Under the pieces are notes generated by a model. That model saw only the letters and a list, made by a program, of their open reading frames with translations, was not told the DNA's origin and made no database searches. From contig JAILHY010000001.1 in the NCBI GenBank assembly GCA_024695575.1, positions 1-41,326 on the forward strand: a stretch of DNA of 41,326 nucleotides, in the 5' to 3' direction. Source of the DNA: Lachnospiraceae bacterium. GTDB lineage: Bacteria; Bacillota; Clostridia; Lachnospirales; Lachnospiraceae. Of this stretch, positions 4,778 through 7,947 are shown piece after piece. Made by a program: the position numbers and the translations under genes. Every line of letters begins with the position of its first letter. Within the stretch, counting starts at the first letter, position 1.

Positions 4778-5509
4778 TTATTTAAGTTCGGTTGCAGGGT
4801 TTTCAAACTCTGCAAGCCTAATCTCATAAGCCTTCATAGCTTCTTTTTCATAGACGGTCTTCGGATCGTCTATTTTCATAAGCTTAAGCAAATGCTTGGT
4901 AAATAACGGATTAAGCGGAAGCAATGGGCCCAAAAGATAAGTTCCAAAGAAACTGTTATCCTTAATCCCTTCGAAGGGCTCACCCGGCGCAAGGCCGTCA
5001 CCCTTTGTTACCTTAACAAAAGGATATTCCGAAGTATCCCCGTAGCTGTGAGTAAACTGGGATTTGTTTCCGACGATCTTGATCCCTTCAAACTCGCCTA
5101 AGAACAGGGAATTGTATCTGTTAAACATACGCTGCTTTGCAGTAAAAGGATATAAGCCAAGACAGGGAATAACCTTACCGTCTTCGCATTCTATTTCTTT
5201 TTCGAAAAGTTCGATGGCGTTACCCGTAGCAAAGAAAATTACTCCGGCATCAATGATCTCGCGGATCCTTGCTGTATAAGGCTTTAATCTTTCGAGCACC
5301 AGTTCCTGTGAATGCTCCGTCATGGGACCGATATACACAAGATCAGGTTTGTTCTTAACAAAGTAAGGCTCGGAATTAAGTGAATCTTCCACAGTCTCTG
5401 CGGAAAGTCCGTTTTCCGCAATGCACTTTGACAGATACTTTACATTAAATGGATCGCCGTAAAGATTGGATACTTCGGGGTAGAGATACTCTATAACCTT
5501 ATCAGCCAT
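4778..5509 (-). CDS. GatD-like class I glutamine amidotransferase-fold protein lacking the expected catalytic Cys and His
   Basis: Start trimmed to ATG 5509 (MADKVIEYLYPEVSNLYGD), overlapping the MurT-like stop. GatD landmarks DGKVIPCLGLYPFTAKQRM and GTYLLGPLLPLNP are present, but the nucleophile region reads FFATGNAIELF and the usual YLHGP reads YLLGP. Confidence 0.8.
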   Translation of the reverse strand: MADKVIEYLYPEVSNLYGDPFNVKYLSKCIAENGLSAETVEDSLNSEPYFVKNKPDLVYIGPMTEHSQELVLERLKPYTARIREIIDAGVIFFATGNAIELFEKEIECEDGKVIPCLGLYPFTAKQRMFNRYNSLFLGEFEGIKIVGNKSQFTHSYGDTSEYPFVKVTKGDGLAPGEPFEGIKDNSFFGTYLLGPLLPLNPLFTKHLLKLMKIDDPKTVYEKEAMKAYEIRLAEFENPATELK

Positions 5510-6875
5510 TTGCCTCTGCCTCCTTGAGTAGTTTTTCTTTTGCACGGCCTGCCATATCGATCTTGTAGACCTGGTGAAGGATGAAGATCTTGACCGCCCT
5601 GTCCGTATCAAGGAGTTTGTAGGCGTTCTCCTCATCTGCCGTAGTGAATATCTTAGATCCGTCAACTCCTGCCAAAAGAAGCCTCAGTCTGTAATCCTCT
5701 GCCCTTCTTCCGGCCACTACGATCTTAACAACCTCGGGCGCTGCCAGTTTCTCAAAGTCTGCATCGTAAGCCCAGGTAATATTCTCCGAAGTCTTCATGT
5801 GCTTAAGTTCGTCATCGGGATAAAGAAGGATCTCCTTCTCCCCCGGTTCGTTCACCGCATAATCAAACACACAGGAGCAGGCTATGGGGTTGTGACCCTT
5901 GGCAAGGTGGGTTATGACCTCGATCTTACCTGCCTTGGAATCTGAATAGCGGCTCTCAACAATCCCGCCTGTCTTAAATCCTTCGCGGATCCGGTCAGCG
6001 GAGATACCCAGGATATCAAGTACAGTGATAACTGTAACCTGATTGTATATATTAAAGATACTGTTACTGATAAGTTCGAATTTCTCAGTTCTTCCCTTAA
6101 GTTCCATGGAAAGTGTGTTTCCAGGAATGTCAACGCATGCGGGGTAATCAGCCTTGGGAGACTCGTAATCTCCACGGGGACAATATACATTTCCGATGTG
6201 ATGATATCTTGAATAACGATACTTAAGCCTTTCGCCGCACACAGGACAGATCTGAAGATCGTTAATGATATTGGAAGGTTTTTCTTTGTCCGTGGGAAGC
6301 TTGTCTATGGCAAAGTATTTCCGGGGATTACTCTCTGCAAGTCGGGATGAAATGGGATCGTCCGCATTAAGGATCATAAGGGCTTCAGGATTGACCGCCC
6401 TATCCACAATTCCCTTAATATATTCGGCATGGGCATTCCTTGTAATGGAATCCCGGAAAAGATTGGTACAAACTATATAATTGGGGCGGATCTTGGGATA
6501 TATCTTGTGAGAACTTCGCTCATCAACCTCAATTATGCCTATCTCCTTGCGGCTGTTTCCGGAGAGTCCCGAATACTTCATCAATGCTGTTGCAATACCT
6601 GAATTGGTATTGCTTCCGGCGCTGTTGTTTAAGAGAGTATAGCCTTCTTTTGCCAGAATGTCGTTAAGAAGATTGCAGACTGTTGTTTTACCGTTGGTAC
6701 CCGTAACACAAATAAGAGTCTTGGGCTTACCGATGAGTCCTAGGTAGTCGGGACAAAGCCTTAACGCAATTTCGCCCGGCATATATGTTGCATTCATGCC
6801 GAGCATTCTTTGTAATCTGTATGCAAGTTTACCTGCAAAATGCCCGAGATAGAAACGGGCTCCACGTTTTGACAT
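5502..6875 (-). CDS. MurT-like Mur ligase family protein (DUF1727-type C-terminus), divergent
   Basis: P-loop VTGTNGKTTVCNLLNDIL, TNLFRD motif, zinc-ribbon-like CPVCGERLKYRYSRYHHIGNVYCPRGDY, C-terminal ITWAYDADFEKL; GGAGAATTTAC ribosome-binding site. Confidence 0.86.
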   Translation of the reverse strand: MSKRGARFYLGHFAGKLAYRLQRMLGMNATYMPGEIALRLCPDYLGLIGKPKTLICVTGTNGKTTVCNLLNDILAKEGYTLLNNSAGSNTNSGIATALMKYSGLSGNSRKEIGIIEVDERSSHKIYPKIRPNYIVCTNLFRDSITRNAHAEYIKGIVDRAVNPEALMILNADDPISSRLAESNPRKYFAIDKLPTDKEKPSNIINDLQICPVCGERLKYRYSRYHHIGNVYCPRGDYESPKADYPACVDIPGNTLSMELKGRTEKFELISNSIFNIYNQVTVITVLDILGISADRIREGFKTGGIVESRYSDSKAGKIEVITHLAKGHNPIACSCVFDYAVNEPGEKEILLYPDDELKHMKTSENITWAYDADFEKLAAPEVVKIVVAGRRAEDYRLRLLLAGVDGSKIFTTADEENAYKLLDTDRAVKIFILHQVYKIDMAGRAKEKLLKEAEANG

Positions 6876-6912: not shown

Positions 6913-7905
6913 TCAGTCTTTAAGTGCCTCCTGGAACACGGGAAGCAGTCCTTCGTTCTTGTCCCTGTGGGGCGGAAGACCGTAGATATCGTGTCCCGGG
7001 AATTCATTCGCTTCGATGAAGCAGATATCATCGGGCATTACGCACACATCCCAGCCTATGTAGCCAACCTCGGGGATCTCGCGAGCCGCATCCTCGCAGA
7101 ACTTAACGACCTCATCCCAGCGGGGGATCTTAAATCCGACAATGGGTACACCGGTGATGGGGTGCTCCGTGTAGAGCTCACCTGACTTCTTTAAAGCCTT
7201 GTATTTAATGATGCCGTCATGTATATCAACAGGAGCAGCAAGTCCCTCGTGATTGAAGTTATCCACGTGAAAATGCTTGTTACCGATTCGAAGAAAGGCT
7301 ACGACCACATGACCTTTAAGCGTCACAACTCTGAGAGTGTTAACGGAATCCGGGTGGATAGCGGCAATTTCCTTGCATTGTACCACGGGTTCCTCGAGCA
7401 AACGCTGTGATTTTGCAAGTAATCCTTCAAAAACTTCCCGAAGATCCTTCCCCGTCGTATCCACGATCTCTATTCCCTGCCCGCAGGCAAGATCCACGGG
7501 CTTTGCAACAAACCTTGCGTGCTTCCCGGCAAATTCCTTGAATCCTTCGAAATCATCAGCCTTAACTTCCAGCCAGTCTCTCTTAAGATACTTGGAAAAA
7601 TGCCTGTTAAAATCAATCTTATTGTGGAAGATCTTCATCTTCTCGGGGTCGTTATATTTCTTTATGAGGGAATTGTTGATGCCTCTCGTAATGACGGTAG
7701 CGCGTTCCTTTTCCGTCATGTTATACATCTCAAACAGGTCGTAATCCACGTACCCTGCCTGGAACTTAAGCCCGCAGTGCACCATGTCAGCAAAAAGAAA
7801 GAGCTTCCCTTTACCGGTCTTATCATGGACCAGATTTATCATGTCAAAGAATCCGCTGTAGTTCATACGGCTGATCCTTTTTAAAAGATACTTTACTTTA
7901 CCCAT
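6913..7905 (-). CDS. Sugar-transfer-associated ATP-grasp domain protein
   Basis: Motifs FVAKPVDLACGQGIEIV, VQCKEIAAIHPDSVNTLRVVTLKG, EVGYIGWDVCVMPDDICFIEANEFPGHDIYG typical of ATP-grasp (PF14397-like). Start trimmed to ATG 7905 after GAGG. Confidence 0.82.
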   Translation of the reverse strand: MGKVKYLLKRISRMNYSGFFDMINLVHDKTGKGKLFLFADMVHCGLKFQAGYVDYDLFEMYNMTEKERATVITRGINNSLIKKYNDPEKMKIFHNKIDFNRHFSKYLKRDWLEVKADDFEGFKEFAGKHARFVAKPVDLACGQGIEIVDTTGKDLREVFEGLLAKSQRLLEEPVVQCKEIAAIHPDSVNTLRVVTLKGHVVVAFLRIGNKHFHVDNFNHEGLAAPVDIHDGIIKYKALKKSGELYTEHPITGVPIVGFKIPRWDEVVKFCEDAAREIPEVGYIGWDVCVMPDDICFIEANEFPGHDIYGLPPHRDKNEGLLPVFQEALKD

Positions 7906-7915
7906 ATAATACCTC

Positions 7916-7947
7916 AAAAAAGAGCCTCACAGAAATCTGCAAGGCTC
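7916..7947 (-). terminator. Rho-independent terminator for the chemotaxis gene, immediately upstream of the ATP-grasp gene
   Basis: Reverse strand GAGCCTTGCAG-ATTT-CTGTGAGGCTC (stem with G-U pairs) then TTTTTT. Confidence 0.82.

Follow-up and report, generated by a model that had tools for sequence, protein, structure and literature searches.

A GatD-like protein without the glutaminase Cys and His and its MurT partner belong to a widespread lineage in Clostridia

What can a GatD-like protein contribute to its MurT partner once the residues that release ammonia from glutamine have disappeared? This question is raised by a gene pair in the window, i.e. the whole analysed stretch of 41,326 nucleotides from a Lachnospiraceae contig. 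In streptococci, MurT/GatD represents an essential target for antibiotics, and the complex shapes how wall fragments of gut bacteria appear to host sensors. The complex has been described as widespread in Clostridia, with Cys and His conserved (PMC6085368, PMC6113224). No description of a GatD lineage lacking these residues (hereafter dead GatD) was found in the open literature, subscription journals being outside the scope of the search. Should MurT work with a dead glutaminase in a large part of the gut Clostridia, the annotation 'GatD' would mispredict both wall chemistry and nitrogen source. Such natural enzymes would also reveal a role of GatD for MurT beyond the making of ammonia, so far known from one in vitro mutant only.

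Loss of the glutaminase residues in GatD

The gatD-like gene (4778-5509, minus strand) encodes a protein of 243 amino acids starting with MADKVIEYL. The first-pass annotation had reported GatD landmarks in it, and open reading frame, strand and motifs were confirmed, with significant homology to GatD chains in the PDB (E-values 5e-9 to 3e-7). The NCBIfam GatD model matched with an E-value of 1.3e-13 (50.8 bits, below the equivalog cut-off of 400), and the score for Pfam GATase_3 was 20.2, below the cut-off of 27. An AlphaFold2 model of the protein (pLDDT 96.3) found S. aureus GatD (6gs2_A) as its best PDB match with Foldseek (TM 0.85, rmsd 2.3), so that the GatD fold is predicted to be kept. 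The model contains a classical nucleophile elbow, consisting of a strand at residues 91-95 and a helix starting at residue 96. An Rfam search of the window gave no match.

Alignment to S. aureus GatD showed that the elbow sequence I-C-G-G-Y-Q is replaced by T95-G-N-A-I-E100 (5210-5227, minus strand). Gly96 (GGT, 5222-5224) occupies the position of the catalytic Cys94, an assignment shared by the phmmer and MAFFT alignments and by the predicted strand-turn-helix elbow. The catalytic His189 is replaced by Leu193 (TTG, 4931-4933, minus strand) within GTYLLGP. It had been noticed before that Cys and His are both missing and that His is exchanged for Leu at this codon; this part stands. The Cys position itself had been placed two residues too early, at Ala94/Thr95 (GCT 5228-5230, encoding Ala94), which is ruled out by three alignments and the model.

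Furthermore, G-G-G-S/Q-D is replaced by G61-P-M-T-E65 (5315-5329, minus strand), with Glu65 at the position of Asp63. The glycines G60 and G95, which form the oxyanion hole of GatD (PMC5871853), correspond to Pro62 and Asn97 in the window protein, and Pro62 is expected to remove one of the oxyanion-hole NH groups. In S. aureus, the glutaminase activity of GatD is dead in the C94A and H189A mutants (PMC5871853), and C94G or C94S abolish activity in vitro while folding remains normal (PMC6113224). Because C94G, C94A and H189A kill the S. aureus activity, the window protein would have lost the hydrolysis of glutamine.

MurT and the gene neighbourhood

The gatD-like gene is preceded by a Mur-ligase-like murT gene encoding 457 amino acids (5502-6875, minus strand), whose 3' end shares 8 bp with the start of gatD. 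Its product scored above the Pfam cut-offs for both MurT_C (1e-20, 74.2 bits) and Mur_ligase_M (40.3 bits) and matched S. aureus MurT in the PDB (8e-52). The P-loop GTNGKTT (6681-6701, minus strand) is intact. G58, K59, N85, E108, D110 and E111 are kept, as is T60 in the subfamily of the window, and so are the gate-loop residues R133, D134 and R138. N85, E108, D110 and E111 are also present in 78/78 relatives, as is the P-loop apart from one or two isolated exceptions. Judged from these positions, MurT of the window retains all residues for ATP binding and carboxylate activation, including those binding Mg and the acceptor carboxylate. The Lys/stem-peptide motif DNAAD is not kept in the dead-type clade.

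The zinc ribbon of MurT (6171-6248, minus strand) contains three of the four Cys. The fourth is Gly235 (6171-6173) in the window and is also lost in a close relative (L026), with all four Cys being present in 76/78 relatives.

A further change affects the contact to GatD. In S. aureus, Asp349 of MurT reaches into GatD and completes the triad, and a D349N exchange severely reduces activity in vitro (PMC6113224); the corresponding Asp-to-Ala exchange in S. pneumoniae lowers activity without abolishing it. The window MurT carries Asn365 (5781-5783, minus strand) at this position, and the column contains Asn in 71/78 relatives and Asp in 0/78. Members of a second dead subfamily (II) often keep Asp or Glu here, and the loss of the Asp is, by sequence, a trait of the window's subfamily and not of every dead member. 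With nucleophile, His, oxyanion hole and MurT Asp all gone, the earlier proposal that this protein cannot hydrolyse glutamine gains strong support. A persisting glutaminase with an alternative nucleophile in the rebuilt site, for which the conserved polar residues Thr95, Asn97 and Glu100 of the elbow might be considered, is very improbable, as the site contains neither Cys nor His, a Pro occupies the oxyanion position, and C94S, C94G, C94A and H189A are all dead in glutamine-dependent assays (PMC6113224, PMC3266927, PMC5871853).

Directly upstream of murT lies a gene for an ATP-grasp protein (6913-7917, minus strand; PF14397, ATP-grasp_ST, 3.2e-48). Such a gene is found at this place and on the same strand in 7/81 loci (the window, L026, L071, L088, L093, L103 and L105), and the six of them present in the tree fall into two separate branches. 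The protein may be an operon partner, e.g. an additional ligase acting in the pathway of MurT. Apart from this gene, which alone recurs across distant branches, the neighbourhood was discarded as a clue to the donor, being mostly housekeeping synteny; the neighbours MurI, RlmN and PrkC reflect synteny within few lineages. At one locus (L145, G063:C7), the genes directly after a dead murT-gatD pair encode an amidotransferase of the asparagine-synthetase type and PTS EIIC.

An old lineage that may occupy one slot

A scan of public genome contigs yielded 260 relatives. The best 80 of these come from MAGs labelled Lachnospiraceae, Oscillospiraceae, Clostridiaceae, Eubacteriaceae, Erysipelotrichaceae and others. 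All 78 close relatives that were aligned, each a separate locus, carry Gly at C94, Glu at Q98, Glu at D63 and I/L/V/T at H189, a uniformity which is partly due to selection, since the 80 loci were chosen for their similarity to the query and one of the search patterns held the motif of the His position. Class-wide genome surveys free of that selection, in which canonical GatD from the same pipeline served as positive control, gave 258 distinct GatD proteins, 180 without both Cys and His and 78 canonical. The Cys position of the 180 dead proteins is occupied by Gly (171), Ser (6) or Asn (3) and His occurs in none; the canonical ones have Cys in 77 cases, Ser in one, and His in all 78. The loss of Cys and His is conserved and not a chance event.

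At least four dead subfamilies can be distinguished, the window belonging to the TGNAxE/KSQF subfamily. Catalytic Cys, His and oxyanion hole are lost in all relatives of the window's type, the MurT Asp in most of them. In their place, GatD of this type has acquired new invariant pocket residues, namely TGNAxE, Glu63 and KSQF, across families. The dead type is also carried by a cultured human gut isolate, Vescimonas fastidiosa MM35 (TGNAMEVF, GTYLLGP), whose GatD is labelled 'hypothetical protein' in RefSeq, and because this carrier is in culture the claim of a dead GatD can be tested.

Some outlying loci were also recorded. A very divergent dead subfamily of family f71 (L219, L221-L223, L225, L227; TGTS/QIQM/TNTLGP) sits in finished Clostridia genomes of 2-4.4 Mb, some of them single-contig. 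One canonical-like GatD (L209, G339:C101) carries Ser instead of Cys (ISSGYQM), with His and the MurT Asp kept, an independent loss resembling that in carbamoyl-phosphate synthetase 1 (CPS1). A dead-type GatD (MTGNSFEM) is moreover encoded in a 5.9-kb faecal record filed as 'Bacteriophage sp.' (L288, MT837974.1), which is probably misfiled bacterial DNA.

Trees calculated without the active-site columns, for MurT, for GatD and for the two combined, separated 81 dead from 38 canonical members with zero exceptions (support 0.97-0.99), the canonical sample consisting mostly of Clostridia and S. aureus, so that wider sampling could shift the rooting. In nearly every locus where both genes were called, gatD follows immediately after murT, and in two loci (L016 and L030) they form a single fused open reading frame. 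The model of the L030 fusion (pLDDT 87, pTM 0.84) has halves matching the MurT and GatD crystal chains. A natural fusion of MurT with a Cys/His-bearing GatD, 822 amino acids long, was observed as well (L224, G678:C7). The scaffold partner suggested by the first-pass annotation is supported by the kept fold, the shared operon, the fusions and the co-evolution of GatD and MurT. Its view of a single odd copy has to be revised: the loss in GatD is an old and widespread lineage over many families of Clostridia, with matching changes in MurT, and not one decaying copy. A non-functional gene undergoing decay, to which the absence of the pair from three near-complete congeners without any MurT might point, is practically negligible as an explanation and refuted in substance by conservation, i.e. 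by open frames, invariant new motifs, fusions, wide spread and purifying selection (low dN/dS, 0.26/3.3, with dS saturated).

The distribution of dead and canonical pairs was followed in one genus (g208), each locus being read individually. Among its 49 genomes with at least 90% completeness, 14 carry a canonical pair only, 30 one dead pair, one two dead pairs, four none and not a single one both types. About nine genomes with both would be expected under independence (naive P 4.5e-9, the true P being larger due to shared ancestry). Because no genome of this genus carries both, dead and canonical pairs seem to share one role, and their exclusion suggests one functional slot, although it may partly reflect shared ancestry. 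An exception outside this genus is a genome of family f71 (G600) with a canonical pair and a distant dead pair. Some genomes hold two or three dead pairs, one of them in tandem (murT-gatD-murT-gatD; L137, G264:C16), where both GatD are dead and the second MurT is short and divergent. A search for a second, canonical pair, as had been recommended, found none: the window's own genome (82% complete) contains one MurT_C and one GATase_3 protein, and congeners with a dead pair (97-99% complete) gave no canonical hit.

The nitrogen donor and comparison with known systems

Free ammonia is present at millimolar concentration in gut and rumen. In the large group of gut and rumen Clostridia with dead GatD, the nitrogen used by the enzyme probably comes from free ammonia or another amine and not from glutamine. 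Our preferred reading, to which we assign a probability of roughly 0.48, is that dead GatD is a needed structural subunit of a working, ammonia-dependent MurT ligase. GatD would hold MurT in its working shape within a complex, MurT would phosphorylate D-Glu at its alpha-carboxyl group in the lipid-linked wall precursor, presumably lipid II, and free ammonia would attack the activated D-Glu to give D-isoglutamine without glutamine. In S. aureus, MurT together with GatD C94G loses glutamine-dependent lipid II amidation and keeps the ammonia-dependent reaction at pH 8.5, and without GatD, MurT shows no activity whatever the donor, so that the GatD protein is still needed (Munch et al., PMC3266927). 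CPS1, too, has a dead glutaminase domain and uses free ammonia (PMC4655335). Because the natural Cys to Gly exchange equals C94G, and given the CPS1 precedent, a MurT that uses ammonia and requires GatD as a scaffold may be proposed by analogy.

Several points stand against this proposal. S. aureus MurT/GatD uses NH3 at pH 8.5 only and not at pH 7.5; the old pocket was not eroded but rebuilt with new invariant residues, suggesting a ligand or another donor; with DNAAD not kept, the acceptor may differ; and related genomes without any MurT exist. Because the pocket is rebuilt and S. aureus shows no NH3 activity at pH 7.5, two other readings stay in play.

The main rival to ammonia is the attachment of another amine to D-Glu. 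Here MurT would couple the alpha-carboxyl group with glycine, a diamine or an amino acid of the kind found in type-B cross-bridges, with GatD in a structural or gating role. Ordinary Mur ligases join amino acids and use a His of the active-site loop, which is absent from canonical MurT (PMC6085368); a loop His reappears, at another position, in MurT of the dead clade (E141 to H in 74/78). An adjoining ATP-grasp ligase gene, as in the window, the occurrence of type-B walls in Eubacterium (PMC11382707) and the exclusion of canonical pairs, which fits competition for one carboxyl group, point in the same direction. No donor-binding residues were identified, however, the species with type-B walls have no shown link to the dead clade, and the MurT gate acids facing the ammonia entry are kept (E198 to D, D355). 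Negativicutes, a group outside our genome sampling, carry cadaverine on D-Glu. We know of no gene in these Clostridia that has been assigned to the coupling of amino acids or diamines to the alpha-carboxyl group of D-Glu. A MurT lineage of such age and spread, with a repurposed GatD, could modify D-Glu in the cell wall with a donor that is not ammonia from glutamine, e.g. an amino acid or diamine; this is possible but, in our opinion, rather unlikely.

Still more doubtful is that the dead pocket serves as an allosteric sensor, in which a small ligand such as glutamine, glutamate or another amine switches MurT on, whatever the donor. The new invariant pocket residues across families and the capping Tyr and Asp19, which are mostly kept, would fit a sensor, and CPS1 is an effector-activated, ammonia-using enzyme with a dead glutaminase domain. 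No ligand is known, and the column of R128, which captures the substrate in S. aureus, is not conserved, though an Arg one residue further on is invariant.

Compared with canonical MurT/GatD, the lipid II isoglutaminyl synthase of S. aureus, S. pneumoniae and S. pyogenes, the dead type shares the operon, both folds, the ATP and acceptor residues of MurT and, in most members, the zinc ribbon. It differs by the absence of Cys, His and oxyanion hole in GatD, by Asn in place of MurT Asp349, by its new invariant residues and by a separate branch in both trees. The central and C-terminal domains and the ATP chemistry are also common to the Mur ligases C-F and the pseudomurein ligases, which in contrast join amino acids or peptides, possess a UDP-binding N-terminal domain and have no GatD partner. 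The S. aureus C94G mutant carries the same Cys to Gly change, and its ligase accepts NH3 and continues to depend on GatD; it is engineered, active with NH3 at pH 8.5 only, and differs by a single change from the wild type, whereas the natural site is rebuilt. In mammalian CPS1, a dead glutaminase domain is likewise kept as a structural part beside an intact ATP-dependent ligase. However, this ligase is unrelated to MurT, Cys is exchanged for Ser in CPS1 and for Gly in dead GatD, and the use of ammonia is proven for CPS1, whereas for MurT with dead GatD we infer it from S. aureus C94G.
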